A DNA stretch of 22,781 nucleotides from a virus. A program made the translations under genes and the position numbers. The notes under the pieces are model-generated. The model was not told the origin of the DNA. It ran no database searches and saw only the letters and a list, made by a program, of their open reading frames with translations. Below, in pieces: positions 5,201 to 20,420 of the stretch. The DNA is taken from IMG/VR virus record IMGVR_UViG_3300028809_000074, positions 1 through 22,781 of that record, one strand, 5' to 3'. Each line of letters begins with the position of its first letter. The first letter of the stretch is position 1.

Positions 5201-5934
5201 TTCGCCTCATCGTAACCGGCCGCAACACTCGACCGTTCCTCGAGAGGCACACGAAGGAGCTGCTCGAGCAGCGCGGCGCATGGCGCTGCACCTGGATCGA
5301 TGACGCGAGCGATGACGGGTCTGCGGACGTTGCCGAGGCGATGTCCCGTGGCGACCCGCGTGTGACGGTCGTTCGGCGAGAGCATCGACGTGGCCCGCTC
5401 GCTAATGTGATTCAGGCGGTTGGCGCCACGCCTCCGGAGGACGTCGTCGTTCTCTGGGATGGCGACGACTTCTTTGCGCACGATCGAGTGCTGGAGCGCA
5501 TCGCCTACGAGTTTGCCAAGCCGGACGTCTGGATGACGTACGGGAGCTTCGAGACGGTCGACGGTCGAACGATGTATCGCGGAGAGTATCCGTGCGAGGT
5601 CGTTGATGACGGTACGTACCGAAGCGCGGCTTGGCTCTGCGGTCCGCCCCGAGCGTTTCGGGCGTGGCTCTTTCAGGCGCTCCCGGTCGGTTGCCTTCTC
5701 GACGACGACGGTGAACCGTGGCGGACGGCGACGGACCAGGCGACGTGTCTTGCTTTGCTTGAACTCGCTCGCGAGCACGCCAGGTACATCGACGACGTTC
5801 TATACATCTACAACGACCACAACCCGCAGTCGGACCATCACGTCCGTCTACGTGAACAGTCAGAGGCATGCTGGCGGGTGAGGCGGCGACCACGGTTGCA
5901 GGCACTCGAGAGCGCGCCGTGGTTCGGTCGATGA
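5197..5934 (+). CDS. Family 2 glycosyltransferase
   Basis: The best start is TTG at 5197: it overlaps the preceding stop (TTGA), has GAGG at 5188-5191 about five bases upstream, and begins the first beta strand of the fold (LIRLIVTGRN). The 245-residue product has the GT-A motifs: IDDASDDGS (residues 34-42) for nucleotide binding and WDGDD (87-91) as the DxD metal and sugar-nucleotide site. Such enzymes transfer a sugar from an activated donor to a lipid, glycan or protein acceptor; donor and acceptor are unknown here. The C-terminal third contains an Asp-rich segment (LLDDDGEPW) and TDQATCLALLELA, probably acceptor-side helices. It is the middle gene of three coupled genes. Confidence 0.85.
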   Translation: MIRLIVTGRNTRPFLERHTKELLEQRGAWRCTWIDDASDDGSADVAEAMSRGDPRVTVVRREHRRGPLANVIQAVGATPPEDVVVLWDGDDFFAHDRVLERIAYEFAKPDVWMTYGSFETVDGRTMYRGEYPCEVVDDGTYRSAAWLCGPPRAFRAWLFQALPVGCLLDDDGEPWRTATDQATCLALLELAREHARYIDDVLYIYNDHNPQSDHHVRLREQSEACWRVRRRPRLQALESAPWFGR

Positions 5935-6977: not shown

Positions 6978-7003
6978 TTCGTCTCTGAGACCTCACCCAC
7001 CCC

Positions 7004-8431
7004 ATGAAACTACGAGACGCTCTCGCAAGCGCGAAGTCGCACGCCTTTGCGCGCTTCGACTCGTGGGTCAACGAGTTTACGGGCTTCTCGACTTGGCGCG
7101 ACAAGACTACCTACGGCAAGTTCGCTCCGTCGGCGCGACTCTCCGATACCGAGCTCAGTGCGCTCTATCACGGCGATGACATCGCGGCTCGCATCGTTGA
7201 TGCCATCCCGCAAGAGATGCTGCGGGAGGGATTCGACGTCCTCACCGGCGATGCCAAGCTCGACGCGTACATCTCCGAGAGGCTCGAGCAGCTTCGCGTC
7301 CGCGATCGATTCGTCGAAGCGATGCGATGGGCCCGCCTCTACGGTGGCGGCGCGCTGCTCATCGGCGCCGACGACGGCCACGACGCGACATCTCCGCTCG
7401 TTCCCGAGGACGCTGACGACCTGAAGTACCTGCATCCGATCGACCGTCGGATGCTCTGGCCGCTCGAGTGGTATCCGGCGGGTCACGCCAAGTTCGGCGA
7501 GCCGCGGATCTACGCTGTCACGATCGTTGGCGGGACCGAATCGATGGTCTCGACCGTCCACGAGTCGAGGCTCATCCTCTTCCGTGGAGCCCCAACTGAC
7601 GTCTACGAGCGAGCGCGCTACGCGTCTTGGGACCTCTCGGTCCTTCAGCGGCCGTACGAGGTTCTCCGCTCGTTCAACGTCGGGTGGAAGGCCGTCGAGG
7701 TAATGCTCACGGACGCCAATCAGGGCGTCTTCCGCATGAGCGGACTCGCGGACATGATTGCGAGCGGCGAGCAAACGCTGCTTCGCAATCGGCTCCAGGT
7801 CAACGAGCTGTATCGCTCCGTCGTTCGTGCACTCGTTGTCGACGCGGAGAGTGGCGAAAGCTTCGACCGTCAGGCCACAAGCTTCGCGGACATCCCGCAG
7901 GTGCTCGACAAGCTGATGCTGCGCATGGCGGCATCCGTCCCGATGCCGGTCACGATCCTGATGGGTCAGTCGCCGGCGGGCATGAATGCCACGGGCGAGA
8001 GCGACTTCCGCTGGTTCTACGACGGACTTCGCTCGAACCAGACCCGCGATCTCGCTCCGAGACTGCGTCGTGTCATCGACGTCATGCTTCGGGCTCAATC
8101 GTCGCCAACGGGCGGCGTCGTCCCGAAGACGATGACCATCACGTTCCCGCCGCTCTGGACGGAGACGCCTCTCGCCGAAGCGCAGCGCCGGCAAGCCATC
8201 GCCACCACTGATGCATCGTACGTGCAGGCTGGCGTCCTCCTCCCTGAGGAGGTCGCACTATCTCGATTCACGCCGCAAGGTTTCGGCGATGAGATCGTGC
8301 TGTCTGACAAGGGCCGCGCCGAGCGAGAACGCGTGCTCGACGAGGACCTTGCTGGGATGCAGGGCGGACAGCGAGACGAATTGAACGACGATGCCGATCC
8401 GACGACGTCCGCGCCGGCCGACGAAGCCTGA
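7004..8431 (+). CDS. Portal protein (DUF1073/Phage_portal_3 family)
   Basis: This 475-residue protein has the DUF1073-type portal pattern: an N-terminal region with FTGFSTWRDKTTYG, LYHGDDIAARIVDAIPQEM (about residues 54-72), WARLYGGGALLIG (about 108-120), the crown and wing region, and GMNATGESDFRWFYD (about 326-340). A dodecamer forms the vertex channel for DNA entry and joins head to tail. ATG 7004 has no Shine-Dalgarno sequence; the preceding bases are C-rich (CCTCACCCACCCC) and follow an 11-bp palindrome at 6981-6991. The 3' end overlaps the head morphogenesis gene by 41 bases. It is separated from the terminase by the glycosylation cassette, an unusual interruption. Confidence 0.92.
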   Translation: MKLRDALASAKSHAFARFDSWVNEFTGFSTWRDKTTYGKFAPSARLSDTELSALYHGDDIAARIVDAIPQEMLREGFDVLTGDAKLDAYISERLEQLRVRDRFVEAMRWARLYGGGALLIGADDGHDATSPLVPEDADDLKYLHPIDRRMLWPLEWYPAGHAKFGEPRIYAVTIVGGTESMVSTVHESRLILFRGAPTDVYERARYASWDLSVLQRPYEVLRSFNVGWKAVEVMLTDANQGVFRMSGLADMIASGEQTLLRNRLQVNELYRSVVRALVVDAESGESFDRQATSFADIPQVLDKLMLRMAASVPMPVTILMGQSPAGMNATGESDFRWFYDGLRSNQTRDLAPRLRRVIDVMLRAQSSPTGGVVPKTMTITFPPLWTETPLAEAQRRQAIATTDASYVQAGVLLPEEVALSRFTPQGFGDEIVLSDKGRAERERVLDEDLAGMQGGQRDELNDDADPTTSAPADEA

Positions 8432-9287
8432 GCGCATCCCGCCTCGAGCGGCACGCTTGGCCCTCACTCCGCAGCCGCCGCGGGCGGTACAGCTCTACCT
8501 CGGCGTCGAGTTGCGACGCACTGCTCGCCGTATCGAGCAAGCCATCCTCGAGACGGTCGAGCCGCATGTTGAACGATTCGCGGCGCCGGATCCCGAGCCG
8601 AAATCCGACGCACACGTCGACGCGCCGCCGCCCTACGACGACGACCCTCGCGGAGTCATCTCGTCGGTAAACGACATGGTCCAGAGCATTCTGGACGATT
8701 ACCTAGGCGAGGCCGACAAGGCGAGCGAGAAGGCGGCTGAGCGAATCGTCACTCACTCGAAACGAGAGTTTGGCCGTCTCGGCATCAAGCTCCTGAAGGA
8801 AGAGCCGTCGTTCAAGCGACGTATCAAGGAGTGGCGCAAAGAGAACGTCGACCGCATCGTGTCGCTGTCGAAAGCGAAGGTCGACCGCGTCGAGGTGCTC
8901 CTCAAGAACAAGGCTGGCATGCGCGTCGAGGCGCTCCGCAAGTCGATTCAGGAGTCCGTCGGCGCAACTAAGAATCAGGCGTCTCTAATCGCCCGTGATC
9001 AAGTTCTGAAACTGAATGGCCAGATTACGCAGGCGCGCCAGGAAGCGGCTGGAATTACTGAATTTGTTTGGTGTACCTCTAATGATGAGCGCGTCAGAGG
9101 GCGCCCCGACGGTCTCTACCCCGACGCGAAGCCCTCGCACTGGGCGCTAGAGGGTAAGCGATTCCGCTGGGACGACCTTCCGAAGATTGGTCCAAACGGC
9201 GAGCGCGGGCGTCCAGGCGAATTTTGGGGTTGCCGCTGCGTTCCATATCCGATTTTGCCTGAATTGGAAGAAAAGGGACTCGGATAA
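8391..9287 (+). CDS. Phage head morphogenesis protein (SPP1 gp7 / Mu gpF-like)
   Basis: The 298-residue product ends in the MuF-type minor head domain: ARDQVLKLNGQITQARQEAA, then ITEFVWCTSNDERVR, a substrate-like WALEGKRF, and the closing PGEFWGCRCVPYPILPE. The N-terminal 60 residues are Arg and Pro rich, and the middle is charged and helical. Family members bind the portal and travel with the DNA or help capsid assembly. ATG 8391 lies within the portal gene and the first 40 residues are low-complexity, so a later start is possible. Part of the conserved C-terminal domain is markedly AT-richer than its surroundings (hand count 44% GC at 9041-9090 and 43% at 9241-9300, against about 60% at 8521-8580). 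Confidence 0.88.
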   Translation: MPIRRRPRRPTKPERIPPRAARLALTPQPPRAVQLYLGVELRRTARRIEQAILETVEPHVERFAAPDPEPKSDAHVDAPPPYDDDPRGVISSVNDMVQSILDDYLGEADKASEKAAERIVTHSKREFGRLGIKLLKEEPSFKRRIKEWRKENVDRIVSLSKAKVDRVEVLLKNKAGMRVEALRKSIQESVGATKNQASLIARDQVLKLNGQITQARQEAAGITEFVWCTSNDERVRGRPDGLYPDAKPSHWALEGKRFRWDDLPKIGPNGERGRPGEFWGCRCVPYPILPELEEKGLG

Positions 9288-9293
9288 CCAACT

Positions 9294-10226
9294 ATGGCAG
9301 ACCCCGCAGCGTTCTCCAGCCCGGCACTCGATGTCGCGAGCGATACGGATTACGACACCCTCGGCGACGACTACGACGGTACTGCGCTCAAGGCGACGCC
9401 GACGACCGCGCAGATCGAGCAAGGCTTCGCGCGACCCGGTCACCAGCTTGATGCGCAACACCTGAATTGGCTGCACAACCAATTTGCGGAGATTGCGAAC
9501 GCAATCATCGGGCAACTTCAGCGCACGCCGCACGTACAGGTCATCACCGAGACGACGGCGAGTGTCGCGATTCCGAGCTGGGCAAAGGTTGTCGAGGTCT
9601 TTGTAAAGGGCGGAGGCGGAGGTGGAGGAGCGGGCTTAGATTCCACGTATGGCGGCGGTGGCGGCGGCTCAGGATACGAGACGCGCATCACACTTCCGCG
9701 CAACTCGGTTCCTGACACGGTCTCCGTTGTCATTGGCGCCGGCGGTATAACCAATACCGATGGCGAACCGTCGACCGTGTCTGGCGGCAATCTAGTTGTC
9801 CAGGCGGATGGGGGCAAGGGCGCCGGTGCTAGCGGCAACGGTGGCGACGGATATTGCGGCGGTGGAACTGGCAGCCAGGCTGACACTGACAATGGCGCCG
9901 ACGGCGGCAGCGCCGGTGGTGACGGAAATGCCTCTGGAGGCTCTACGCTGGCCACTCCTGGAGCTGGTATGCGCGCCTCACTCGGCGGAGGGGCGAGCGG
10001 CCCCGGCGGAGCCGGTGGAGCTTTCGGATACGGCGGTGGTGGTGGCGGCGGCGGCTTCGCTCTTGATGGCGGCCCCAGTGGCGAGGCGGGTGGGGGGGCA
10101 ACGCCCGGAGCCGGAGGTGTTGGTTACGGAGCCGGCGGTGGTGGCGCAAGCGAGAACAACGCGACTGGCGGCGCCGGCGCCGATGGCGTCGTCGTAATCA
10201 CCTGTTGGGGCGGTTCGGACGAGTAG
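9294..10226 (+). CDS. Glycine-rich adhesin-like or head-fibre protein
   Basis: The 310-residue protein has an N-terminal anchor-like part (residues 1-80, including FARPGHQLDAQHLNWLHNQF, a pattern common at the base of phage fibre proteins), a strand pair (VITETTASVAIPSWAKVVEV), and from residue 106 onward long Gly runs to the end, closing with a beta strand (GVVVITCW). This matches the glycine-rich domain (Gly_rich) found in phage fibres and tip adhesins, where Gly segments pack as polyglycine II helices. Its position between the head morphogenesis and protease genes points to a capsid-attached fibre rather than a tail tip. The start ATG 9294 follows the upstream gene after six bases. A run of seven G at 10092-10098 lies in the Gly-coding part. 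Confidence 0.75.
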   Translation: MADPAAFSSPALDVASDTDYDTLGDDYDGTALKATPTTAQIEQGFARPGHQLDAQHLNWLHNQFAEIANAIIGQLQRTPHVQVITETTASVAIPSWAKVVEVFVKGGGGGGGAGLDSTYGGGGGGSGYETRITLPRNSVPDTVSVVIGAGGITNTDGEPSTVSGGNLVVQADGGKGAGASGNGGDGYCGGGTGSQADTDNGADGGSAGGDGNASGGSTLATPGAGMRASLGGGASGPGGAGGAFGYGGGGGGGGFALDGGPSGEAGGGATPGAGGVGYGAGGGGASENNATGGAGADGVVVITCWGGSDE

Positions 10227-10248
10227 CCCCGCACGAAGCATCACCTAA

Positions 10249-10298
10249 CCCGGCGCCAATTGGCGCACCGGGCCAACCAAGTTTTGTCCGGAGGCGAC
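10249..10298 (+). promoter_or_regulatory. Structural-gene leader element, copy A (protease)
   Basis: CCCG (10249-10252) pairs with CGGG (10269-10272), and GCGCC (10253-10257) with GGCGC (10262-10266), around an AATT loop, leaving a two-base bulge (AC) on the 3' side. Nine bases later comes TTTTG (10282-10286), then CCGGAGG and ATG 10299. This copy shares the GCGCACCGGGCC block and the spacing to the T-run with copies B, C and D, but its nine-base spacer has no upstream partner for the outer helix seen in the others. Confidence 0.7.
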
Positions 10299-11393
10299 AT
10301 GCCGACCAGCATCCTAGCGACCGTCGGCGCGTTCGATGAGTCTACGCGCTCGGTCGAGATCCTCGCGTCGACACCGAAGCCGGTGGACGGCGAAGCGCTC
10401 GCCACGTGGGACCTCGAACGGTTCCTGAAGAACCCCGTCATCCTCTGGGCGCACGACACGGACGAGCTTCCCATCGGGCGCGCGGAGGACGTTCGCATCG
10501 ACGAGGAAGGCCTCAAGATGCGCGTCATCCTCGCGAGCGCGGCGGTCACGCCTCTCGCCGAACAGGTCTGGAATGGCGTGAAGGAAGGCATCGTCCGAGC
10601 AGTCAGCGTTGGCTTCGAGCCCGGCCAGGCGAGCAAGAACGACGGCGTTACGACGCGCACAGCAAGCGAGTTACTTGAGGTCTCATTCGTCCCGGTCCCG
10701 AAAGACGAAGACGCGGGCATCCTAAGCCCCGAGGAGCGTGCCAGGCGGGCTTCTGCAGCGGCGTCAGAATTGGCAAGGCACCGCGCCAAGCGAACGGACG
10801 CAGCGGACCTGCGCGTCGACAACATTGGCCACTTCGACGCCGCGCAGATGTCCAAGGTCGAGTGGACCCCGTGGGGCACCGCTCGCATCAAGGCACGAGT
10901 GTCGAGAGTCGGCGTCCTCGACTACCCCGGCCGTCGAGAGCTCCGACCCCGCGACGAGGTGATGCGTGCGGACTCGATCGCGTCGCTCAAAGGCGTCCCG
11001 GTCGTCGACTTCGTGGACCACAAGGACCTCGTTGGCCCAGACGACTTCCGAAAGAAGGTTCGAGGCTTCGTCGAGGAAGCTCACGCCGACGGCGACTACA
11101 TCGCTGCGACGCTGCACATCCACGACGGTCCCACGCTCGACGCGATTCGCAATGGCGAGCGCCTCGACATCAGCGCTGGGTACATCGCGCCGGTCGACGC
11201 GAATCCCGGCGAGTGGCAGGGCGAGCGTTACGACGTTGTTCAACGTGACATCGTCTACAACCACGTTGCCCTCTGCCCACCGGGGCGAGGACGAGCCGGC
11301 CGCGAAGTGGCCTTGAAGCTCGACTCCCAAACATCATCGCATCGGCAAGTCGCGACGGTCATGGCTGACCAAGTGCGACGCGTCGCACGCTGA
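10299..11393 (+). CDS. Prohead protease with two tandem protease domains (HK97-type plus DUF2213)
   Basis: Start ATG 10299 has GGAGG upstream and gives 364 residues. Domain 1 (about 1-150) is an HK97-family prohead serine protease with the triad visible as H52 (LWAHDTDELPIG), S103 (VRAVSVGFEP) and E127 (LLEVSFVPVP). After an Ala and Arg rich linker, domain 2 (about 185-340) matches DUF2213: GVLDYPGRRELRP, FVDHKDLV with H241, LDISAGYI with S292, and YNHVALCPPGRGRAG (from 320). Prohead proteases remove scaffold and delta domains before DNA packaging. Both domains keep their His and Ser, so either or both may be active. It precedes the scaffold and capsid genes, as expected, and is the first gene with the repeated leader element. 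Confidence 0.9.
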   Translation: MPTSILATVGAFDESTRSVEILASTPKPVDGEALATWDLERFLKNPVILWAHDTDELPIGRAEDVRIDEEGLKMRVILASAAVTPLAEQVWNGVKEGIVRAVSVGFEPGQASKNDGVTTRTASELLEVSFVPVPKDEDAGILSPEERARRASAAASELARHRAKRTDAADLRVDNIGHFDAAQMSKVEWTPWGTARIKARVSRVGVLDYPGRRELRPRDEVMRADSIASLKGVPVVDFVDHKDLVGPDDFRKKVRGFVEEAHADGDYIAATLHIHDGPTLDAIRNGERLDISAGYIAPVDANPGEWQGERYDVVQRDIVYNHVALCPPGRGRAGREVALKLDSQTSSHRQVATVMADQVRRVAR

Positions 11394-11408
11394 ACATCAA
11401 CCACTCAC

Positions 11409-11472
11409 CGTGGACAGCCTGAGCGCGCATCGCGCATCGGGCCAGTCGCGTTTTTGCCAGAGGTACATTCCT
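11409..11472 (+). promoter_or_regulatory. Structural-gene leader element, copy B (scaffold)
   Basis: The inner helix is CCTGA (11418-11422) with TCGGG (11437-11441) and GCGC (11423-11426) with GCGC (11432-11435), with bulged A 11436. The A-T pair here replaces a G-C pair of the other copies. The outer helix is CGTGGAC (11409-11415) with GTCGCG (11445-11450), one G bulged. TTTTTG (11451-11456) follows directly, then AGAGG and ATG 11473. Confidence 0.7.
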
Positions 11473-12171
11473 ATGTCCGAGAAGACGTTTGTTCGTCTCG
11501 ACAATCGAGACTACGAGGTCGGGAGCCAGGCGCATCTCGACAAGATCGACGAACTCCACAAGGCCGAGCTCGACGCGCTCCAGAAGCGTCTCGATGCGGC
11601 CGAAGAGGAGAAGCAGGAAGAGCGCAAGAAGCGCGAGGCCGCTGAAGGCGAGAAGGACGCGGCGAAGGAAGACGCCCGTAAGGCTCGCGAAGAGGCTGAC
11701 GGCGAGAAGGCCAAGGCCGACGAGGAGCGCAAGAAGCGCGAGGAAGAGGAGGAAGAGAAGGTCCGCGAGGGCACGCGTCTCCGTCGCCGCGCTGAGCGCC
11801 TTCTCGCTGCTGCTCGCGAGGTCGAGGAGGAATCCCCGTCCGAGGAAGAGCGCGCGAAGCGCGAAGAGGACGAGGAGAAGAAGATGGACGGCCTTAGCGC
11901 CAAGGAAGTTATGGTCCTTGCGATTCAGGCCCACTCCAAGGGCTTCGACGCTAATGGCAAGTCGGATGACTACGTGCGTGCTCGGTTCGACGCACTTGAG
12001 GAGTCTGTCCGTGAGCGTCGTGGCGTCAACGGCGTGGCGCGCGTCGCGCAGGCGCTAGCGCATCGGCTCGACAGCAACGATGGCGAGGACGCCATCGACA
12101 AAGCTCGCAAGGCCCGTGATGAGGCCATGGCCAACGCCTGGAAGGCTGGCCGCAACGGAGGTTCGCGATGA
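11473..12171 (+). CDS. Capsid scaffolding protein (coiled coil)
   Basis: Start ATG 11473 (preceded by AGAGG) gives 232 residues; the longer frame from 11410 would run through the leader element. After a short N-terminal part (MSEKTFVRLDNRDYEV) residues about 25-160 are an almost pure Glu, Lys, Arg, Ala coiled coil, and the C-terminal 70 residues are mixed helical (VMVLAIQAHSKGF, then RKARDEAMANAWKAG). The charge pattern, the length and the place between the protease and capsid genes identify it as the internal scaffold that guides capsid assembly and is then removed by the protease. The family cannot be named because the low-complexity sequence is uninformative. The stop overlaps the decoration protein start (ATGA). 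Confidence 0.8.
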   Translation: MSEKTFVRLDNRDYEVGSQAHLDKIDELHKAELDALQKRLDAAEEEKQEERKKREAAEGEKDAAKEDARKAREEADGEKAKADEERKKREEEEEEKVREGTRLRRRAERLLAAAREVEEESPSEEERAKREEDEEKKMDGLSAKEVMVLAIQAHSKGFDANGKSDDYVRARFDALEESVRERRGVNGVARVAQALAHRLDSNDGEDAIDKARKARDEAMANAWKAGRNGGSR

Positions 12172-12740
12172 GTGCTTCGAATTTCGTTCAGTCCAGCGTG
12201 ACGATCTCTCCGGTTGTCGGGACTCCCGGGACCGAGGCAGATCCCGGCTACGATAAGACCGTCGAGACGCGAATCGCCAGCGGCCCAATGGGCTTTGGCG
12301 ACTACGTCAAACTGAGTGGCGAGGAGGGCTGTGCCCTTCCGGCCGAAGCCGCTGACGTCACCGCGGGCATCGGCGGTGTTGTCCTCGGCAATGCAAGCCG
12401 CGGCAGCGGCGGAAGCGCGTACATCACTGGCGGCTACGTCACGGGTGACGTGGTCCCGGTCATGATTCGCGGTCGCGTCTTCGTGGCGGCTGAAGGCCCG
12501 GTGAGCGCGCTCGCTGTTCCGTACGTGAACTTCACGGCGGACAATGGTGCGTTCCGCGGCGATACGGGCGGCGGCAACGCTGCGGCCCTTCCCGGCGCGC
12601 GATTCATCCACGGTGCCGCGACGGGCGGCGTTGCGGTCCTCGAGATCAATCACCTCGGCGCCGCGGTTGGTCCGACTGGCGCGACGGGTCCGACGGGTCC
12701 GACGGGTCCCACGGGTCCCACGGGTCCTGCGGGCGAGTGA
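12168..12740 (+). CDS. Capsid decoration protein with collagen-like tail
   Basis: The 190-residue product starts at ATG 12168, overlapping the scaffold stop. Residues about 1-165 are a beta-rich domain (DYVKLSGEEGCALPAEAADV, AGIGGVVLGNASRG, VVPVMIRGRVFVAAEGPVS, AVPYVNFTADNGAF) resembling DUF2190-type head decoration proteins, which bind the outside of the capsid lattice. The final 23 residues are Gly-X-Y triplets, mostly Gly-Pro-Thr, a collagen-like stalk that probably projects from the head. Its placement between scaffold and major capsid genes supports a capsid role. Attachment of the stalk and its binding partner are unknown. The domain assignment is by pattern and position, and the collagen repeat is directly visible. 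Confidence 0.75.
   Translation: MSASNFVQSSVTISPVVGTPGTEADPGYDKTVETRIASGPMGFGDYVKLSGEEGCALPAEAADVTAGIGGVVLGNASRGSGGSAYITGGYVTGDVVPVMIRGRVFVAAEGPVSALAVPYVNFTADNGAFRGDTGGGNAAALPGARFIHGAATGGVAVLEINHLGAAVGPTGATGPTGPTGPTGPTGPAGE
12669..12737 (+). repeat. Collagen-like Gly-X-Y coding repeat
   Basis: Near-identical 9-bp units (GGTCCGACG and close variants) encode seven Gly-X-Y triplets plus Gly-Glu at the end of the decoration gene. Tandem repeats of this type can gain or lose units by slippage in steps that keep the frame. Confidence 0.85.
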
Positions 12741-12770
12741 TCGCCAACTAGCCACCACATAACAACTTAC

Positions 12771-12837
12771 GCTCCGTCCGAGCCTGGGCGCCTCGCTGCG
12801 CACCGGGCCGGCGGAGCTTTGTCCGGAGTTCACCGAT
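12771..12837 (+). promoter_or_regulatory. Structural-gene leader element, copy C (major capsid)
   Basis: The inner helix is CCTGG (12783-12787) with CCGGG (12803-12807) and GCGC (12788-12791) with GCGC (12798-12801), with bulged A 12802. The outer helix is GCTCCG (12771-12776) with CGGAGC (12812-12817), six perfect pairs. TTTG (12818-12821) follows directly, then CCGGAG and ATG 12838. It is the longest gap in the structural region, 97 nt. Confidence 0.75.
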
Positions 12838-13821
12838 ATGAGTATCGAGGCATTTTACAAGCGTCGTCTTCGTGAGTCGCTTTCGCAGCACTTCGACGCG
12901 AACGAGACGCTGTTTCTCGAGCGTGAAGTCACGCAGCTCCGCGCGAAGATCTTCGAGGTGCAGTTCCCCGAGCTGAAGGCTCGCCGGTTTGCACCGAAGG
13001 CCACGGATATCGCGGCTAGCGCGGACACCTACGCGTTCAAGGTTCTGAAGCCCGTCGGCAAGGCGGACCTCATTAGCTACAAGTCGACCGATATCCCTCG
13101 CGTGGATATCGAAGCGGCTGAGGTGCTCGGCAAGGTCTATCCGATCGGCGCAAGCTTCGGATGGGATATCAACGAACTCCGAGAGTCCGTCCGTCTCAAC
13201 GTGCCGCTCTCGCAGCTCAAGGCGCGTGTTGCTCGCGAGAGCATCGAGCGGAGCATCGACTTCGTCCTCGCGTTCGGCGCGCCGCCCGACGCCACGGGCG
13301 CGTACCCGACGACCGGCATGAACGGGCTTATCAATAACCCGTACGTCACCTCTCAGGGCATCACGCCGGGTCTGTTCTGGGACATCGCCGGGACCCCGAA
13401 GGCGGCGGATCTGATCCTCAAGGATCTGAGCACCGCCATCTCTGAGATCCGTCAGGAGTCGAGCGATACGTTCAATGCGAACACGCTCATCCTGCCGCCC
13501 GCGCACTACGACTATATCCAGCAGACGCCGTTCAGCACCTTCACCGGGAAGTCGATTCTCTCGGTTCTCCTCGAGAACAACCCGGGCCTGATGGTCGATC
13601 GCTGGCATTTCCTCACCACGGCTGGTGCTGGCGGTGGGCCGCGTGCACTCGTCTACCAAAACGACCCCACGATCCTCGAGGCGGTCGTCCCGCAAGAGTT
13701 CGAGGTCATGCCTCCCGAGGTGAAGGGCTTCGAGTTCCTTAACAACTGCCACGCGCGTTGCGGCGGTGTGAAGGTCTACCAACCCTCCGCGATGCGGTAC
13801 GTCGATTTTGCGACCTCCTGA
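12838..13821 (+). CDS. Major capsid protein (DUF2184, HK97 fold)
   Basis: The 327-residue protein matches the DUF2184 family of HK97-fold capsid proteins: an N-terminal helical arm (FYKRRLRESLSQHFDANETL), the E-loop and A-domain strands (PIGASFGWDINELRES), RESIERSIDFVLAFG, a GMNGLINNPYVT segment, and closing strands (EFEVMPPEVKGFEFLN, then CGGVKVYQPSAM). About 415 or more copies usually build a head of this class. There is no obvious long delta domain, which fits a separate scaffold gene upstream. It has its own leader element, in keeping with the very high expression expected. The stop overlaps the next start by one base (TGATG). Confidence 0.93.
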   Translation: MSIEAFYKRRLRESLSQHFDANETLFLEREVTQLRAKIFEVQFPELKARRFAPKATDIAASADTYAFKVLKPVGKADLISYKSTDIPRVDIEAAEVLGKVYPIGASFGWDINELRESVRLNVPLSQLKARVARESIERSIDFVLAFGAPPDATGAYPTTGMNGLINNPYVTSQGITPGLFWDIAGTPKAADLILKDLSTAISEIRQESSDTFNANTLILPPAHYDYIQQTPFSTFTGKSILSVLLENNPGLMVDRWHFLTTAGAGGGPRALVYQNDPTILEAVVPQEFEVMPPEVKGFEFLNNCHARCGGVKVYQPSAMRYVDFATS

Positions 13822-14213
13822 TGTGTACTTTGCATAGCCGAGTAGCAGTGAACTTCCGGCAGCACGGCGGTTTCCTCCTCAAGGAGGGCGAGACCGCCGT
13901 GTGCCCGGACACGCTACCGACGTTCGTGCAGAGGTACATCGCAAAGCTCGTCGACACTGGTGTCGCCTCCGTCAAGGCATGCGACCGCGCTATGCCCAAA
14001 GCGGAGGCGAAAGCCGAATGGAGCAGCCAGGATGGCGCTATGCAGACTGGCGATCAAGCCTTCGGCTCTCCGGAGCCGGCGGCGCAGGTCGACCTCGTGC
14101 CTGCCGAATCGCCAGCCGACATGACGAGCAACGAGCCTCTGCTGGTGCAGACGGAACCATCGCCTGATGCGCATTCCTATAACGGTCGGCGCCACGGAAA
14201 GCGACGGAGGTGA
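13821..14213 (+). CDS. Hypothetical head-associated protein
   Basis: Start ATG 13821 overlaps the capsid stop by one base and gives 130 residues; the frame is open further upstream inside the capsid gene but that part is a shadow. Residues 1-55 look folded (VAVNFRQHGGFLLKEGETA, LPTFVQRYIAKLVDTGVASV), and the rest is a disordered-looking, Pro, Ala and Glu rich tail ending in a basic cluster (NGRRHGKRRR). The position just after the capsid gene suggests a minor head or head-completion component. I do not recognise the family. Confidence 0.65.
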   Translation: MCTLHSRVAVNFRQHGGFLLKEGETAVCPDTLPTFVQRYIAKLVDTGVASVKACDRAMPKAEAKAEWSSQDGAMQTGDQAFGSPEPAAQVDLVPAESPADMTSNEPLLVQTEPSPDAHSYNGRRHGKRRR

Positions 14214-14216
14214 CCA

Positions 14217-14420
14217 ATGAAGATCAAGAGCATGGCACCGTTCGCGTTCCGCAAGATGAGTGTCCCGAAGGGTGAGTCGGAAATCGACTTCGACGCGCTC
14301 TCCAAGGAAGACCGCAAACGATTCGATACCCTCGTGAAAGCGGGGCTAATCGAAACGCTCGAACCGATGCCGAAGGCAAAGCCAAAGAAGGCCAAGTCCA
14401 GCGGCGAACCATCGGCCTGA
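14217..14420 (+). CDS. Small hypothetical protein
   Basis: This 67-residue product starts at ATG 14217, two bases after the previous stop region (GGAGGTGACCAATG gives a clear Shine-Dalgarno). It has a short acidic helix (IDFDALSKEDRKRFDTLVKAG) and a Lys-Pro rich tail. The pattern of a small helical domain with a basic tail recurs in phage head-tail regions, but no family is evident. Confidence 0.65.
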   Translation: MKIKSMAPFAFRKMSVPKGESEIDFDALSKEDRKRFDTLVKAGLIETLEPMPKAKPKKAKSSGEPSA

Positions 14421-14423
14421 CCC

Positions 14424-14705
14424 ATGATGTCCCTTGCCGCCTTCCGTGCGCGGTTCCCTGAGTTCCGCACGGCTACCGACGACTTCCTCCAGGTTGTACT
14501 CAACGAGACGGCCCTCGAGGTCGACGAATCGGTCTTCGGCGCAAAGACGGACACTGCGCACGGCTTCCTCACCGCTCACCGGCTGTTGAACCACCCTTAC
14601 GGGCGGAGTCAGCGGCTGGAGAGCGGCGCAGGACTCGACGACCGATGGCTGCAGGAATTCGAGCTCCTAAAGCGGCAGGTCGTTCCAACCATCTTCGTTA
14701 TCTGA
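14424..14705 (+). CDS. Head-tail connector protein (DUF4054-like)
   Basis: The 93-residue all-helical protein has the DUF4054 pattern: FRARFPEFRTATDDFLQVVLNE at the N-terminus and GFLTAHRLLNHPYG in the middle. Family members are adaptors that dock under the portal and extend the DNA channel. The start is one of two adjacent ATG codons (14424 or 14427) after TGACCC. It stands in the normal order between the capsid gene and the neck proteins. Confidence 0.8.
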   Translation: MMSLAAFRARFPEFRTATDDFLQVVLNETALEVDESVFGAKTDTAHGFLTAHRLLNHPYGRSQRLESGAGLDDRWLQEFELLKRQVVPTIFVI

Positions 14706-14706
14706 G

Positions 14707-15585
14707 GTGGCAGCATTCAAGAAAGCGCCCATTCGCGACATCGATCGCGGGTGGAAAGACCTGATGCGCCGTCTCGCTACGACGAATACGGAGATTACCG
14801 TCGGAGTTCACTCGCAGGACGGCGACGTACCGAAGAAGCTCGCAGAAGGCGAGGATGACGAGGGGCTAACCCTCCTCGAGGTCGCCGCCGCGCACGAGTT
14901 CGGGATAGGCGTTCCTCGCCGCTCGTTCATTGCCGATTGGCAGGACGAGAACAGAGAACGGCACAAGCAGCAAGTCGCCGTGATGGCCAAGTCCATCGCG
15001 GCTGGCAAGATGACCGCCAAGGTTGCCGCCGAACGTCTAGGCAATCTCTGGGTCGGCGAGGTTCAGAAGCGCATCGCCGCCGGCATCAAGCCGGAGCTAA
15101 GTGAGCAGCGGAAGAAGGAGAAGAAGTCCTCCGTTCCGCTGATTGATACAGGGCAACTTCGCTCCTCGATCGCGTACGCCGTCAACGGGAAGCTGAGCCC
15201 GTCAAAGGCATACACCGAGCAAGTGAACGCGCCGGCTATCGCTGCGGCGAAAGCGCAGAAGGAGGCCGAGCGTGAGCGGAAGAAGAAGGTTGCTGCGATC
15301 AAAAAGGCGGCCAAACAGTCGCTTCGCAACGCATCCACGCTTCTGAAAAAAGACCTAAAGAAGGCGTCGAAGTCGACCGCTAAAGGCCTGAAGAAGGCGT
15401 CAAAGAAAGCCGCGAAGACGATCGAGCGCGGAGCCAGGAAGGCTGCCGCCGCGACGGCGCGGAATGCAAAGAAGGTTGCGAAGAGGCTCTCTCGCAACGC
15501 CTCGCGCACCGCGAAGAAGAACTCTCGCGTCGTAAAGAAGAAGCTGAAGCGGACCAGGGCCAAGAAGAAGCCGCCGCAGGAGTGA
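14707..15585 (+). CDS. Neck or tail-completion protein with histone-H1-like basic tail
   Basis: This GTG-start gene (14707, one base after the previous stop) encodes 292 residues. Residues 1-165 match the virion morphogenesis type of HK97-gp10/Mu-gpG-like proteins: ITVGVHSQDGD, LLEVAAAHEFGIGVPRRSFIADW (about 56-78) and PLIDTGQLRSSIAY (about 144-157). Residues 191-292 are a Lys and Ala rich tail with 41 Lys or Arg and 3 acidic residues in 102 positions, resembling histone H1 C-terminal domains. A normal family member stops near residue 165. The tail could bind the DNA end in the neck channel or non-specifically bind DNA in the cell; this is inference. Confidence 0.82.
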   Translation: MAAFKKAPIRDIDRGWKDLMRRLATTNTEITVGVHSQDGDVPKKLAEGEDDEGLTLLEVAAAHEFGIGVPRRSFIADWQDENRERHKQQVAVMAKSIAAGKMTAKVAAERLGNLWVGEVQKRIAAGIKPELSEQRKKEKKSSVPLIDTGQLRSSIAYAVNGKLSPSKAYTEQVNAPAIAAAKAQKEAERERKKKVAAIKKAAKQSLRNASTLLKKDLKKASKSTAKGLKKASKKAAKTIERGARKAAAATARNAKKVAKRLSRNASRTAKKNSRVVKKKLKRTRAKKKPPQE

Positions 15586-15588
15586 CCC

Positions 15589-16239
15589 ATGGTCAACTGG
15601 TCGGAGATCTGTCCCGTCCTCAAGCAGGTCTTCACAACGCTTGCGACAGACCAGCTGGAGAGCCCATCGCCGGAATGGCGCGCCGAGTGGCACGACCGGC
15701 ACTGCGACTACATCCATCCGGAGCAGGAACTTGCTCTGTATCTGCGGGTCACGTCATGCGTCGGAATCGGCGAGGACGAGACTCGATACGACGAGGTCGT
15801 CGAGGACGATGCCGTCGTCGACGTCACCGAACGACAGTGCGGGCTTCGCAGGTTCGTGCTTAACGTCCAAGCGGAGCTGACGGAAACCGAGGATGGCAAG
15901 TCTGCCATCAATACGCTCGAGCGGATTCGTACACGTCTACGTCGTACGTCCATCCTAGGCGAGCTGCTCGATGTCGACGTTGCTCTTGTAGAGGTCGGCT
16001 CCGTCCAAAACATCTCGCTCACGTTCGACAGCCGAGCGTGGTCGGTCGCGAGCATGGACGTCACCTTCTGCGCCGCAGTCAACGACTCTGACCCGGTGCC
16101 TACTGGGTGGATTGAGCGGATTGTCATTAGCTCTGACGTCGATGGCGCGTCGACGCAGCTGACCGACGAAGAACTACCGGACTCTCCGCCGGCTGAAGAC
16201 GACGACGGCGGCGACGAGGACGAAGGGCCGACCCCGTAG
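15589..16239 (+). CDS. Neck/tail terminator protein (LIC_12616-like)
   Basis: The 216-residue product (ATG 15589, three bases after the stop) has the pattern of LIC_12616-family neck proteins: a first helix (WSEICPVLKQVFTTLATDQL), a strand-turn pattern (LYLRVTSCVGIGEDE), RRFVLNVQAELTET, an INTLERIRTRLRR helix, and a closing VASMDVTFCAAVNDSD. These form the ring that ends the tail and meets the connector. The C-terminal 35 residues are almost all acidic (Asp and Glu), an uncommon tail for the family. The opposite charge of the preceding protein's basic tail invites the idea that the two pair, which is inference. The gene is followed by the leader element before the sheath. Confidence 0.75.
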   Translation: MVNWSEICPVLKQVFTTLATDQLESPSPEWRAEWHDRHCDYIHPEQELALYLRVTSCVGIGEDETRYDEVVEDDAVVDVTERQCGLRRFVLNVQAELTETEDGKSAINTLERIRTRLRRTSILGELLDVDVALVEVGSVQNISLTFDSRAWSVASMDVTFCAAVNDSDPVPTGWIERIVISSDVDGASTQLTDEELPDSPPAEDDDGGDEDEGPTP

Positions 16240-16261
16240 GGGACCGCCAAGAAACTTTATT

Positions 16262-16326
16262 CGTGGCACACGCTCGGGCGCTGACGGCGCACCGGGCTGG
16301 CCGCGTTTTGCCAACTCGGAGACGCG
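16262..16326 (+). promoter_or_regulatory. Structural-gene leader element, copy D (tail sheath)
   Basis: The inner helix is CTCGG (16273-16277) with CCGGG (16292-16296) and GCGC (16278-16281) with GCGC (16287-16290), with bulged A 16291. The outer helix is CGTGGC (16262-16267) with GCCGCG (16300-16305), with one G.U pair. TTTTG (16306-16310) follows directly, then CGGAG and ATG 16327. Confidence 0.72.
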
Positions 16327-17658
16327 ATGTCGCTCATCGACCAGATCATTAATCTTGTCATCACGCTCGATACGCGTGCGCCGTCGCAAGCCGGCTTCGG
16401 AACGCCGCTCATCCTTTGCTACCACGAGGCGTGGGCTGATCGGGTGCGCGAATACTCGTCTCCAGACGAGATGCTCGACGACGGTTTTACGACCGACGAC
16501 CAGGCGTACAAGGACGCGCAGATCATCGTTTCGCAGAGCCCCCACCCGTCGACGTTCAAGGTTGGTCGCCGCGATACTCCACTAACTCAGAAGATCGACA
16601 TCACGCCTACCGTCACGAAAGCGGGATTCGTCTACACCGGCTCGATCGCTGGCCAGACCTGGACCGTTACCGTGCAGGCGGAAGACTTGGTTGCGGACAT
16701 CTGCGACGACATTGTCACGGCCGTCAATGCGCTATCGAACGACGTCGTAACGGCCACCGATGGGACGTCCAAGGTAACCCTGACTGCGGACGATGCGGGA
16801 GCAGTTCACGCCTTCACGTTTGGTCCAGGCCTGGACGTCATGGACGTCACAACCGACTCGACGACCGACGATGAGCTCGCAGCCATCGTTGCGGCAGATT
16901 CGGATTGGTACGGGCTCACCATTGCGGACTCCCAGAGCAAGGACACGATCGTGCTCGGTGCCGCGTGGGCGGAGACGCAAAAGAAGATTTTCCTTGCGCA
17001 AACCGCCGACGCAAACTGCCTTAGCAGCGGTTCGTCGACGGACACGATGGCGGCGCTCAAGGCCGCCTCGTACAAGAACACGGCGACCATCTGGCATCGC
17101 CACATCGGCGGGACCGAACGGCTCGCTACGGGCTGGCTGAGCACGATTCTCGTTCCGGACCCCGGAGGCGCAACCCCGGCCTTCAAGGAGGTCTCCGGCG
17201 TCACCGTGAACACGATGAGTACGACCGGGATGAACACCGTCCTCTCGAAGAACGGCTCCGTCTACGTGAACGACGCGGGGCTCAACATGACCTTCGAGGG
17301 CAAGTCCGCACAAGGTCAATTCATTGACACGACTCGTGGCCTTCACTGGCTCGAGGCACGCATCAAGGAGGCGCTGATCCAGCTTTTCGCAAGCTCGCAG
17401 GTTGTGCCCTTCACCGATGCTGGCGTCGAGGCCGTGAAGAACGCTATCCGTGGTGTGCTAGGCCAGGGCGTAACCAACGGCTTCCTGTCGGAGGACGTGA
17501 CCCCGGTGGTGACGGCGCCGTCCGCCAGAAGCGTCTCGTCGACGAATCGAGCAAACCGACGCCTCCCCGACGTCCGATTCACTGCCGCGCTCGCTGGCGC
17601 GATCCACGGCCTCGAGAACGCCGGTGGTCCCGGCATCAACGGCGTCATCCAGGTCTGA
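16327..17658 (+). CDS. Tail sheath protein (DUF3383)
   Basis: The 443-residue protein matches DUF3383 sheath proteins: MSLIDQIINLVITLDTRAP and GFGTPLILCYHE at the N-terminus, ATIWHRHIGGTERLATGWLS in the central part, and the C-terminal domain with INMTF-like LNMTFEGKSAQGQFIDTTRG, HWLEARIKEALIQLF, and FTAALAGAIHGL. The sheath is the contractile cylinder around the tube and is made in many copies. Residues about 85-200 form an extra Thr and Val rich beta domain (TAVNALSNDVVTATDGT), probably surface exposed. It has its own leader element (copy D). Confidence 0.92.
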   Translation: MSLIDQIINLVITLDTRAPSQAGFGTPLILCYHEAWADRVREYSSPDEMLDDGFTTDDQAYKDAQIIVSQSPHPSTFKVGRRDTPLTQKIDITPTVTKAGFVYTGSIAGQTWTVTVQAEDLVADICDDIVTAVNALSNDVVTATDGTSKVTLTADDAGAVHAFTFGPGLDVMDVTTDSTTDDELAAIVAADSDWYGLTIADSQSKDTIVLGAAWAETQKKIFLAQTADANCLSSGSSTDTMAALKAASYKNTATIWHRHIGGTERLATGWLSTILVPDPGGATPAFKEVSGVTVNTMSTTGMNTVLSKNGSVYVNDAGLNMTFEGKSAQGQFIDTTRGLHWLEARIKEALIQLFASSQVVPFTDAGVEAVKNAIRGVLGQGVTNGFLSEDVTPVVTAPSARSVSSTNRANRRLPDVRFTAALAGAIHGLENAGGPGINGVIQV

Positions 17659-17666
17659 GTTCCTCG

Positions 17667-17714
17667 CGAGCGACATCGCGCTCGTGACCCCACTACAACG
17701 CGGGCGGCGCCCGC
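17667..17714 (+). promoter_or_regulatory. Two hairpins in the tail tube leader
   Basis: CGAGCG (17667-17672) pairs with CGCTCG (17679-17684) around six bases, and GCGGGC (17700-17705) pairs with GCCCGC (17709-17714) around a GGC triloop. They lie in a 71-nt gap between the sheath and tube genes, followed by AGCGGAGC and ATG 17730. Neither is followed by a T-run, so these are not typical terminators. The gap lacks the motif of elements A to D. Confidence 0.5.
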
Positions 17715-17729
17715 AGAGCGGAGCAGAGC

Positions 17730-18167
17730 ATGGCTCGCAGGCTCACGGTCTACTCGTGCAATCAGGTCAAGTGCATCGTGGGTGCGTTCCCTATCGAGTC
17801 CGGACGGAGCGATGGTGACTTCATCACGATCTCCCAAACGGAAGAGAGCTATACGTACAAGCAAGGCGTCGACGGCGAAGGGACACGCAGCTTTACAGGA
17901 GCTCGCCTCTGCCGCGTAAGCATCACTGTCATGCAGACGAGCGCCGCAAACGCCTTCCTGTCGGCTCTGCACAAGGGCGACATCGAGGCGAACGGCGGCG
18001 CCGGCGTCGTTCCGCTGAGCATCTCGGATCTCGGCGGACTCTCGCTCTTCTTCAGTCCCGAAGCGTGGATCGTAAAGATGCCCGACCAGACGTACGCGAA
18101 GGAGGCGGGCACCGTCACGTGGGAGTTCGACTGCCACAACGTTCAAAACTTCGCCGGTGGTCACTGA
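17730..18167 (+). CDS. Tail tube protein (DUF3277)
   Basis: The 145-residue protein has the DUF3277 pattern: SCNQVKCIVGAFPIESG near the start, a DFITISQTEESYTYKQGVDG segment, RVSITVMQTSAANAFLSAL, and the closing ETWEFDCHN-like TVTWEFDCHNVQNF. Hexamers of it stack to form the inner tube through which DNA leaves. Its length is normal. ATG 17730 is preceded by GGAG. Sheath then tube is the standard order of contractile tails. Confidence 0.9.
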   Translation: MARRLTVYSCNQVKCIVGAFPIESGRSDGDFITISQTEESYTYKQGVDGEGTRSFTGARLCRVSITVMQTSAANAFLSALHKGDIEANGGAGVVPLSISDLGGLSLFFSPEAWIVKMPDQTYAKEAGTVTWEFDCHNVQNFAGGH

Positions 18168-18170
18168 TAA

Positions 18171-18647
18171 ATGGCTCGTTCGACAAAGCAACTCACGATC
18201 GGGAAACACGAATACGAGCTCATGACGCTCGGCGCTCTAAAAGGCGCCGAGCTGTGGCTCGATCTCCTTCGGATCATTGCGGTGCCCATCGAAGCCCTGG
18301 CTTCCAAGGAGAAGGCCGGAGAGGACGAGATCGTTACCGCAATCGCGGCGGCGGTCCGATCCATCGACCACGCGACCGCAGCGAAGTTCTACGCCGCGTT
18401 TGGTCCGATGTCGAAGGTTCGCGTTCCGGGACAATCCGTAGGCGAGCCCGAGCGATGGCCGACGCTTGAGGGAGCGGTATTCGACGATCACTTCGCGGGC
18501 AACTACGTCGAAATGACCGAGTGGCTCGTACAAAGCATCAAGTTCAACTTCCTCGGTTTTTTCGGCGATGGGTCGCTCGCCAGTCTCGCCGCAAAAGTGC
18601 GGGCGGCCACCAAAGACTTGAAGTCTACGACGACGTCGACTGGCTAG
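18171..18647 (+). CDS. Tail assembly chaperone, short form
   Basis: The 158-residue product starts at ATG 18171, three bases after the tube stop. Its position between the tube and tape measure genes, its small size, its charged N-terminal domain (QLTIGKHEYELMTLGAL) and the KFNFLGFF segment near the slippery site identify it as the tail assembly chaperone comparable to lambda gpG or P2 gpE. Such proteins coat the tape measure during tail assembly and are absent from the mature virion. A second reading frame downstream is reached by a -1 shift. The short form ends at TAG 18645-18647. Confidence 0.82.
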   Translation: MARSTKQLTIGKHEYELMTLGALKGAELWLDLLRIIAVPIEALASKEKAGEDEIVTAIAAAVRSIDHATAAKFYAAFGPMSKVRVPGQSVGEPERWPTLEGAVFDDHFAGNYVEMTEWLVQSIKFNFLGFFGDGSLASLAAKVRAATKDLKSTTTSTG

Positions 18648-18805
18648 TCTGGCGCGTCCTCCTCCACGAGCGCGCGCCCGTAAAGTCGCTACGCGAGATC
18701 GAAGAGTGGTGGTCCATCGACGACCTGCTGAGCGCGAACATCGCCCTCGATGTTGTCGACGAGTTCGACCGGAAGGCCCGTGAAGAACTGGAACGGGATA
18801 AGTAG
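18171..18805 (+). CDS. Tail assembly chaperone, long form by -1 frameshift
   Basis: Reading from 18171 through 18563 and then, after slipping back one base, from 18563 to 18805 gives about 211 residues: 131 from the first frame and 80 from the second. The second frame (RRWVARQSRRKSAGG, then YDDVDWLVWRVLLHERAPV and the acidic helix IDDLLSANIALDVVDEF) has protein-like composition but no credible start of its own; its first GTG at 18521 has no ribosome-binding site and lies inside the first frame. This matches lambda gpGT and P2 gpE+E' organisation. The coordinates cover a spliced-in-frame reading, not a single continuous frame. Confidence 0.82.
18557..18563 (+). other. -1 ribosomal frameshift slippery heptamer
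   Basis: The sequence T TTT TTC (positioned as X XXY YYZ with codons TTT and TTC in the first frame) is a canonical slippery site and lies in the overlap of the two chaperone frames, before the short-form stop. Downstream pairing is available (CGGCGA at 18563-18568 with TCGCCG at 18586-18591), although it begins right at the slippery site rather than after the usual 5-9-base spacer. Confidence 0.85.
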
Positions 18806-18812
18806 GTAATCG

Positions 18813-20420
18813 ATGGGAGTGCTCCGTGAGCTGGTTGCCAAGTTTTCTGTTTCCTTCGATGACGCCGAGCTCAAGAACGGCATAGCTGCGATCGGAGACG
18901 CTGTCGGAGGACTCAAAGGCCTGGCTGGCGCACTGGGCGCCGGGGTTGCGCTTAGCGCGGTCCGGGAGTTCACCACCTCAATCGCCGACCAAGCTATCGC
19001 GCTCGAGAACCAGAGTCTCCAACTCCGAACGAGTACCGATCAGATCCAGCGGCTCCAACAGGCCGCCACGATGGCAGGCGCGTCCAGTGAGGCGATGACC
19101 GCCGCGCTGACGAAGCTCAGTCAGACGTCGAAGAAGCCTGACGAAGCGCTAATGCGCATCGCCGATCGCGTGTCGGCTATTCACGACCCCATCAAGCGCG
19201 CGCGCTACGGGACCATCCTCCTCGGCGACAGCTACCGAGACCTCGCGCCGCTCCTCGAGAAAGGCCGCAAGGGTATCGGGTCGCTCGTCAACGAGGCCGA
19301 CTCTCTGGCCGGCGTCTTCGACAAGAGCACCATCGAGGATGCGCGTGCGCTACGCGCCGAGATGGGCAAGCTGAAGGTCTTCTGGGATGGCCTAAAGACC
19401 CAGCTCGGCTCGGCCTTGCTGCCCGTCATGCGCGACCTTACAGCATTGCTCGTCCCGCTCGCAGTGCGCTTCCGGCAGCTAACGAAGAACACTCAGATCT
19501 TCAAGACTGTCGCCTTCGCTCTCGGTGGCGCCGGCATCTTCAAGGCGATCGCCGCATTCGGCGGTCTCCGAAAGATGCTGATGCTTCTGACGAACCAGTT
19601 CCTAAAGGTCATTGCGCCCATCCTCATCCTCGAGGACTTCCTTGTGTTCATGCAAGGAGGCAAGTCCGCATTCGGGGAGATCGTAGACAGGCTCTTTGGG
19701 AAGGGCTCGGCGGACAAAGTTCGCGCTTGGGTCACGGAGACCTTCAACCGGGTCAAAACGTGGCTAAGTGACACGTATACCGAATTCAAGCCGGTCATCG
19801 AGGAGATCATCGTTCTCGCAAAGCGGATGGTTACCGAGCCCGGCGTCGTGTGGCAGGAGTTCACCGACGGCATGAAACAGATGTGGTCTGACCTCGTCGG
19901 TTGGATCAAGAGTTCGTGGCTTGGCCTCGCGTTCGCGTCTATGATCGGGGCAGGCGTAGACGGTTCAATTCAATTCCTTAAGAACCTTTATCAGGCGTTT
20001 ACCTGGTTGTTCGACTACGTCTCGAAGAGATTGACAGAGACCTTCGACGGCCTCTCGAAGGCGCGCGAGATACTCGCCAAGATTCCCGGACTAAGGTCGC
20101 TCGACAATAAAGTCTTTGGCAAGACGTTTACCGACTCGGTGCTTGGCAAGAGCGCGGAAGAGAAGCAGCGAGATGACTGGTTTGAGGCGGCTCGCGCTCG
20201 CGGCGCCCAACTCGAGCGAGACAACCTAGCCAACGGCGCTGCGGCCAGAGCGGGCGCACCGTCCGTAACCACGACGGTGGAGGCTCCGGTGAGCGTCAAC
20301 GTTACGGTGGCGCCCGGGACACCTGCGCAGACTGCGAACCGCGTTGCCTCCGAGGCCGCCAAGGCCATTCAGAAGAGCAACCAAGCGACACGCTCGGCTC
20401 TCGTGCCGGGAGCAGGGTGA
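18813..20420 (+). CDS. Tail tape measure protein
   Basis: The 535-residue product is the longest gene of the window and lies directly after the chaperones, as tape measures do. It is largely helical, with an N-terminal segment (VAKFSVSFDDAELKNGIAAI), a Gly and Ala rich hydrophobic stretch (GLKGLAGALGAGVALSAV, about 32-50), a membrane-like middle region (FKTVAFALGGAGIFKAIAAF, about 230-250, and FLKVIAPILILEDFLVF, about 265-282), and a Thr, Val and Pro rich C-terminus. It sets tail length and may enter the host envelope on infection. At the usual 1.5 angstrom per residue the tail would be about 80 nm, short for a myovirus. Confidence 0.88.
   Translation: MGVLRELVAKFSVSFDDAELKNGIAAIGDAVGGLKGLAGALGAGVALSAVREFTTSIADQAIALENQSLQLRTSTDQIQRLQQAATMAGASSEAMTAALTKLSQTSKKPDEALMRIADRVSAIHDPIKRARYGTILLGDSYRDLAPLLEKGRKGIGSLVNEADSLAGVFDKSTIEDARALRAEMGKLKVFWDGLKTQLGSALLPVMRDLTALLVPLAVRFRQLTKNTQIFKTVAFALGGAGIFKAIAAFGGLRKMLMLLTNQFLKVIAPILILEDFLVFMQGGKSAFGEIVDRLFGKGSADKVRAWVTETFNRVKTWLSDTYTEFKPVIEEIIVLAKRMVTEPGVVWQEFTDGMKQMWSDLVGWIKSSWLGLAFASMIGAGVDGSIQFLKNLYQAFTWLFDYVSKRLTETFDGLSKAREILAKIPGLRSLDNKVFGKTFTDSVLGKSAEEKQRDDWFEAARARGAQLERDNLANGAAARAGAPSVTTTVEAPVSVNVTVAPGTPAQTANRVASEAAKAIQKSNQATRSALVPGAG

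Follow-up and report, generated by a model that had tools for sequence, protein, structure and literature searches.

The window, which is the whole 22,781-base IMG/VR virus record analyzed in this study, is a fragment of a contractile-tailed phage. Its gene content included terminase, glycosyltransferase, portal, Mu F-like, protease, scaffold, decoration-type, major capsid protein (MCP), and neck genes, followed by sheath, tube, tail chaperone, tape measure, and baseplate genes. From the portal to the sheath, most genes were found to abut or overlap, and real gaps occurred only before the protease, scaffold, MCP, and sheath genes. The initial annotation, which described a leader in each of these gaps, had given their lengths as 72, 79, 97, and 87 nt, and these values were exact (10227-10298, 11394-11472, 12741-12837, and 16240-16326, respectively). 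Its naming of the four downstream genes held as well, as seen in the following gene features.

10299..11393, + strand: prohead protease gene (phrog_530, 2.5e-40; DUF2213 and Peptidase_S78)
11473..12171, + strand: scaffold-like coiled-coil gene (weak match to the C-terminal part of phrog_530, 6.9e-9)
12168-12740: decoration-type gene (phrog_563), overlapping the end of the scaffold-like gene
12838..13821, + strand: MCP gene (phrog_264, 3.2e-64; PF09950, 1.1e-43)
16327..17658, + strand: tail sheath gene (phrog_205, 1.5e-91; DUF3383)

Each of the four gaps contained one copy of a repeated element, a compact module of 43 nt. From 5' to 3', the element is composed of a left arm (consensus GCCTGG-GCGC), a loop of 5-6 nt, and a right arm GCGC-A-YCGGGC with one unpaired A, the two arms forming a hairpin of 10 bp with the bulged A on its 3' side. 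The right arm is followed by one pyrimidine, exactly six variable nucleotides (N6), the tail GYTTT(T)GYC, the Shine-Dalgarno sequence, and the ATG. The copies and their parts are given below.

10248..10289, + strand: copy 1, protease leader (44.3 bits); left arm 10248-10256 (one base short), loop 10257-10262, right arm 10263-10273 with the bulged A at 10267, N6 10275-10280, tail GTTTTGTC 10281-10288
11417..11458, + strand: copy 2, scaffold leader (49.0 bits); left arm 11417-11426, loop 11427-11431, right arm 11432-11442 (A-U replaces G-C), N6 11444-11449, tail GTTTTTGCC 11450-11458
12782..12824, + strand: copy 3, MCP leader (60.3 bits; orthologous copies in two relatives, G001 and L158); left arm 12782-12791, loop CTCGCT 12792-12797, right arm 12798-12808, N6 12810-12815, tail GCTTTGTC 12816-12823
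16272..16313, + strand: copy 4, sheath leader (48.9 bits); left arm 16272-16281, loop 16282-16286, right arm 16287-16297, N6 16299-16304, tail GTTTTGCC 16305-16312

The shared core proposed in the initial annotation was recovered in 4/4 copies as GCGC / loop / GCGC / A / YCGGGC / Y / N6 / GYTTT(T)GYC, where the spacer was exactly 6 nt in every copy when counted from the pyrimidine after CGGGC. The inner stems that it had listed were only partly borne out: a hairpin was present in all four leaders, but in the protease leader the CCCGG/CCGGG and GCGC/GCGC pairings cannot both form fully because one left-arm base is missing. The protease copy has 9 pairs and a two-base bulge, with A.C at the outermost position. 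All four copies were associated with a start codon on one strand (+), with 25 (protease), 30 (scaffold), 29 (MCP), and 29 (sheath) nt between the stem and the ATG. The loop and N6 varied among the copies; the stem, spacing, and tail were kept, and the right arm and bulged A were nearly invariant. In addition, the scaffold and sheath copies had extra upstream sequence in common (CGTGG-ACA-GC), as did the protease and MCP copies the sequence TTTGTCCGGAG. An N-terminal extension of the encoded proteins was considered and rejected: the core reads Ala-His-Arg-Ala in one frame, which matches the reading frame of the gene only in the protease leader, the distance from this frame to the ATG being 36 nt in the protease leader and 40 nt in the MCP and sheath leaders, with an extra T in the scaffold leader.

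The element was absent from the gaps before the tube (71 nt) and tape measure (165 nt) genes, the sequences of which were unrelated. The tube-gene gap (17659-17729) included two other GC hairpins that lack the GYTTTGYC tail. The apparent 165-nt gap lies under an overlapping reading frame 3' of the tail assembly chaperone gene (18521-18812, +), and this frame may be a candidate frameshifted extension of the chaperone, as would be expected from its position.

The repeated element is real and not a chance repeat. When each copy was scored with a matrix built from the other three, it received 28.2-31.4 bits, and the maximum of the same test on 100 shuffled windows was 17.4 bits. By a count of motif positions, the four copies reached 19.5-20 of 20, compared to at most 15 in the rest of the window and at most 16 in the remainder of the 115-kb relative G001. 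Furthermore, all six pairs among the four leaders of the window were alike beyond shuffling (p <=0.005).

Relatives of the phage were better found with the terminase and a four-row MCP alignment than by protein scans with the MCP alone, the sheath, or the portal, which added few. A strict-pattern search of viral contigs identified one true homologue of the element, in G001 (IMGVR_UViG_3300012973_001074, 115.5 kb), and the other matches had no left arm by inspection. The single copy in G001 lies immediately 5' of an MCP gene whose product is 59% identical to that of the window, and it is identical to the window MCP copy at 42 of 43 nt. A second scan, covering 2.9 million viral contigs, considered the hairpin only and made no use of the tail or of gene position. 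It returned 19 stretches, two of which were in phages that share the gene order of the window (G001 and L158), both immediately before the MCP gene and on the coding strand. The phage L158 (IMGVR_UViG_3300043449_001220; MCP 44% identical) had one copy, which scored 47.3 bits with a model built without L158 and kept the six-nucleotide spacing, with the tail GCTGTGCC. A weaker match (20.0 bits, E 0.008 over 386 kb) was found in the gap before the decoration gene of L094. It reads CCCTGAGCGGG-AAATA-CCTGCTCGGGG, T, GGCGGA, GCATTGTC, with the bulged A absent, and is probably a diverged copy. The resulting homologue set included seven copies from four metagenomic records. In the MCP tree, the window, G001, and L158 formed a supported clade (98/96).

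The homologues in these three relatives sit before structural genes and are not scattered. The description of the element in the initial annotation as one for the most abundant virion proteins was not supported as worded: prohead proteases are not among the abundant proteins of virions, and the relatives have only a single copy, located at the MCP (G001, L158) or decoration gene (L094). The four-fold use is therefore special to the window phage; a search for reuse of one leader within the genomes of relatives recovered only weak short matches. Since the four leaders of the window are alike beyond shuffling and the MCP leader has orthologues in relatives, the MCP leader probably came first, with the scaffold, protease, and sheath genes receiving duplicates of it in the lineage of the window.

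Traces of a broader distribution were observed at the MCP gene. An exact 14-mer, GCGCCTCGCTGCGC, was present in the MCP leaders of the window, G001, and three other relatives (L089, L117, and L124), and it was absent from the remainder of the 1.6 Mb of sequence fetched, which was partly redundant. The MCP leaders of these three relatives had no match by models R1 or R2, and their predicted fold differs, with a long CTTCGGG...CCCGAAG stem and a tail that is not single-stranded. They may contain a relic of the same leader. As leaders in their own right, they are well conserved and about 100 nt in length (L089 16987-17086, L117 845-942, and L124 7856-7955), and include a GAGCC hairpin and the long CTTCGGG/CCCGAAG stem adjoining the Shine-Dalgarno sequence. 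They constitute a candidate second family of structured leaders in the same phage group. The element was absent from the other relatives searched, which included L118, L120-L123, L029, L137, and more. Many relatives without the element had other hairpins 5' of the same genes, and hairpins before structural genes were common in this phage group. The protease-gene gap of L089 (14602-14706) also contained a tRNA-like sequence on the minus strand, with a GGTTCGAATCC-like T arm, which was not called by ARAGORN.

The frequency of GC-rich hairpins before the structural genes of these phages, together with the clear duplication of the window copies, would be expected if the element were a functionless mobile or chance repeat, similar to REP sequences, spread by recombination in intergenic DNA. 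This explanation is nevertheless very improbable, as chance was excluded by the shuffles, and the element occurs in one orientation, always at a start codon, and is kept at the MCP leader of diverged relatives. Moreover, the copies differ from each other in the loop and N6, with the stem, spacing, and tail retained.

Among the seven copies, 98.6% of the cells of the proposed stem form standard pairs, compared to 22-46% for slid partners. Two-sided changes were observed in three pairs (G-C to C-G, G-C to A-U, and C-G to G-C), and one-sided variation in three pairs was only to or from U.G or G.U, and one stem pair was U.G in 5/7 copies. A U.G pair present in most copies and a bulge on one side are usual for RNA but would be strange in a DNA palindrome. 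The alignment was hand-fitted to the hairpin, and loops were padded with N (alignments A7, A10, and A11) because plain MAFFT alignments (A3 and A6) misplaced the left arms. The covariation score was reached by 0/500 shuffles, where it should be noted that the hand-fitted alignment holds seven sequences, that much of the signal comes from L094, and that related sequences can exceed shuffles in this tool even without structure. For the first five sequences, which excluded L094 and L158, covariation was not above shuffles. In the predicted ensembles, the hairpin formed with a pair probability close to 1 in three leaders (scaffold, MCP, and sheath) and for the most part in the protease leader. Because the seven copies pair at 98.6% of cells, with three two-sided changes and a common U.G, the element is best read as RNA and would be part of a transcript. 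The proposal of the initial annotation that this is one repeated cis-acting, RNA-like leader thus gained from the base-pair changes across homologues, within the reach of seven sequences in a hand-fitted alignment.

The same observations bear on whether the inverted repeat could instead be a DNA signal, namely a late-gene promoter or operator bound by a transcription factor of the phage or host. Two conserved sequence blocks at a fixed spacing with variable DNA between them would suit such a site, phage capsid genes are commonly preceded by promoters, and in G001 a strong GC hairpin is located 5' of the element. We consider this reading improbable: U.G is the most frequent pair at one stem position, RNA pairing is retained throughout the variation, the dyad symmetry is broken by the bulged A, and we know of no promoter class with this block spacing. 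A scan of 6900-18900 for sigma-70 promoters (-35/-10 hexamers 16-18 nt apart), the only class scanned, identified none. In addition, the tail ends a few nucleotides before the Shine-Dalgarno sequence, and a promoter ending there would therefore leave almost no leader. The hairpin in G001 mentioned above (L024 7855-7900; AACGCCCCGC/GCGGGGCGTT) is followed by only a weak T run and is possibly a terminator or attenuator before the capsid gene.

In the window, no intrinsic terminator (a GC stem followed directly by a T run) was found on the + strand of 6900-18900, and the element itself differs from a terminator in that 7 nt separate the stem from GYTTT. The lack of a terminator consensus to read through in the cassette weighs against an elongation element, in which antitermination or pausing RNA, similar to put or the target hairpins of RfaH/LoaP, would renew the modification of RNA polymerase along the late operon. 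Bulged hairpins in leaders spaced over one long + strand operon would fit this role. However, they are positioned with respect to start codons, a constraint that elongation would not impose, and no NusG paralogue was identified in the fragment; among the explanations considered, we regard this one as the least probable.

With the repetition, placement, orientation, spacing, and base pairing of the element observed, along with its conservation before the MCP gene in two relatives, we favor with moderate confidence a 5' leader module that is transcribed as part of virion-protein mRNAs and most likely acts constitutively in cis to raise expression. The stable bulged-A hairpin ends 25-30 nt 5' of the start codon, and between the two lie a short stretch containing U and the Shine-Dalgarno sequence. 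This is just 5' of where the 30S subunit would sit. The hairpin could thereby mark or protect the upstream border of the cistron as a roadblock or 5' stabilizer, preventing decay from the 5' side and pairing with upstream sequence, and the stretch between the hairpin and the start would give the 30S subunit room to land. The proposed outcome is a strong expression of the first gene in each translation-coupled block. Compared to shuffled leaders, the accessibility of the Shine-Dalgarno sequence was higher in the scaffold and MCP leaders and lower in the protease leader. A simple on-off switch is unsupported because the Shine-Dalgarno sequence is not consistently hidden. A switch based on its sequestration was also rejected as a candidate, as the long-range pairing of the protease leader (CCCCG/CGGAGG and ACGAAGC/GUUUUGU) was absent from the other three leaders.

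What counts against a constitutive leader is that the sequence conservation of the right arm and tail exceeds the need of a plain roadblock hairpin, which makes recognition by a protein the strongest rival. An RNA-binding protein of the phage or host would bind the bulged-A hairpin and the GYUUUGYC tail and coordinately repress or activate translation of the protease, scaffold, capsid, and sheath, for example by feedback from an unassembled virion protein. The near invariance of the right arm, bulged A, six-nucleotide spacing, and tail next to a variable loop and N6 is in line with such binding, as is the coordinate placement on four assembly genes. On the other hand, no candidate binding protein was identified in the fragment, the single copy in relatives leaves no regulon there, the Shine-Dalgarno sequence is not consistently occluded, and the probable copy in L094 lacks the bulged A, and we therefore hold an RNA regulon to be rather unlikely. 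Its fuller form, a virion-assembly regulon of a dsDNA tailed phage in which one RNA-binding protein acting on four leaders would set the protease:scaffold:capsid:sheath ratio from the late operon, is slightly less likely still.

The element appears to be undescribed, a possibility raised in the initial annotation. At the gathering threshold, no family of Rfam release 15 matched in the window, L024, L089, L117, or L124, and a relaxed threshold added chance-level matches only, none of them at the elements. No description of the element was found in open-access papers. A blastn search of GenBank phages with the MCP leaders of the window and L158 returned weak matches in unrelated genes only. An element of host genomes was also considered and rejected, as 49 strict-pattern matches in genome contigs look like coding coincidences by inspection. 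Model R2 had two matches at E<0.001 per genome in 379 Myxococcota genomes, a number close to chance; one was in an apparent coding sequence, and the other was a hairpin near the apparent end of rpmF. The Myxococcota genomes contained only distant MCP relatives (<=32% in the loci read), and the element was absent there.

The closest parallels among known systems are the SAS/ESAS elements of cluster K mycobacteriophages, start-associated repeats with inverted repeats whose function is unproven, in which a 13-bp GGGATAGGAGCCC motif at the start is accompanied by 17-bp imperfect inverted repeats in the non-structural half of the genome (PMC3203893, PMC12699233). Both are short repeated elements directly 5' of several translation starts within a single phage, where an inverted repeat with a variable spacer lies beside a conserved motif, and SAS/ESAS are likewise nearly always in one orientation. 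In contrast, the SAS consensus was absent from the four leaders, which have GYTTT(T)GYC instead, located 6 nt after the hairpin; the arms are 9-10 bp with a fixed, one-sided bulged A, and the genes are structural. As the motif, arm length, and gene class differ, the element is not a member of SAS/ESAS. The mRNA of T7 gene 10 carries a stem-loop near its 5' end. In the leader of this major capsid gene, an element 5' of the Shine-Dalgarno sequence supports strong translation (PMC8748333). The T7 leader may serve by analogy as a functional model, since one copy of the present element also sits in the leader of a major capsid gene; however, the two are unrelated in sequence, the T7 leader is AT-rich and occurs once, close to the promoter, and enhancer activity is putative here. 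The operator hairpins of MS2 and PP7 have a 5'-side bulge and overlap the replicase start codon. The element is similarly a short hairpin close to a translation start and has one bulged A, but its bulge is on the 3' side, it lies ~30 nt upstream, and it belongs to a dsDNA phage, with no known ligand. Closer to the window, the MCP leaders of L089, L117, and L124 are similar in being ~100 nt leaders before an orthologous MCP gene that share the 14-mer.

Tailed phages need the right ratios of capsid, scaffold, protease, and tail proteins, and few descriptions exist of leader elements that recur before several structural genes. The element looks like a real, undescribed signal for making virion proteins. 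Occurring before four genes of a single phage and before the capsid gene in relatives, it offers a natural experiment in the tuning of late phage mRNA. It also adds an RNA motif absent from Rfam, with a possible use as a leader for gene expression in hosts of high GC content.

Two further features were observed outside the structural cassette. Between the terminase and portal genes, the window encodes two family-2 glycosyltransferases (5155-6977, +), the second of which is kept at 92% in L098, a near-identical phage with a portal identity of 98%. Finally, the window is mostly coded on the + strand, and two overlapping minus-strand genes at 1184-1824, a Gp49-like gene (PF05973) and a helix-turn-helix gene, look like a toxin-antitoxin pair of the HigB/HigA type.
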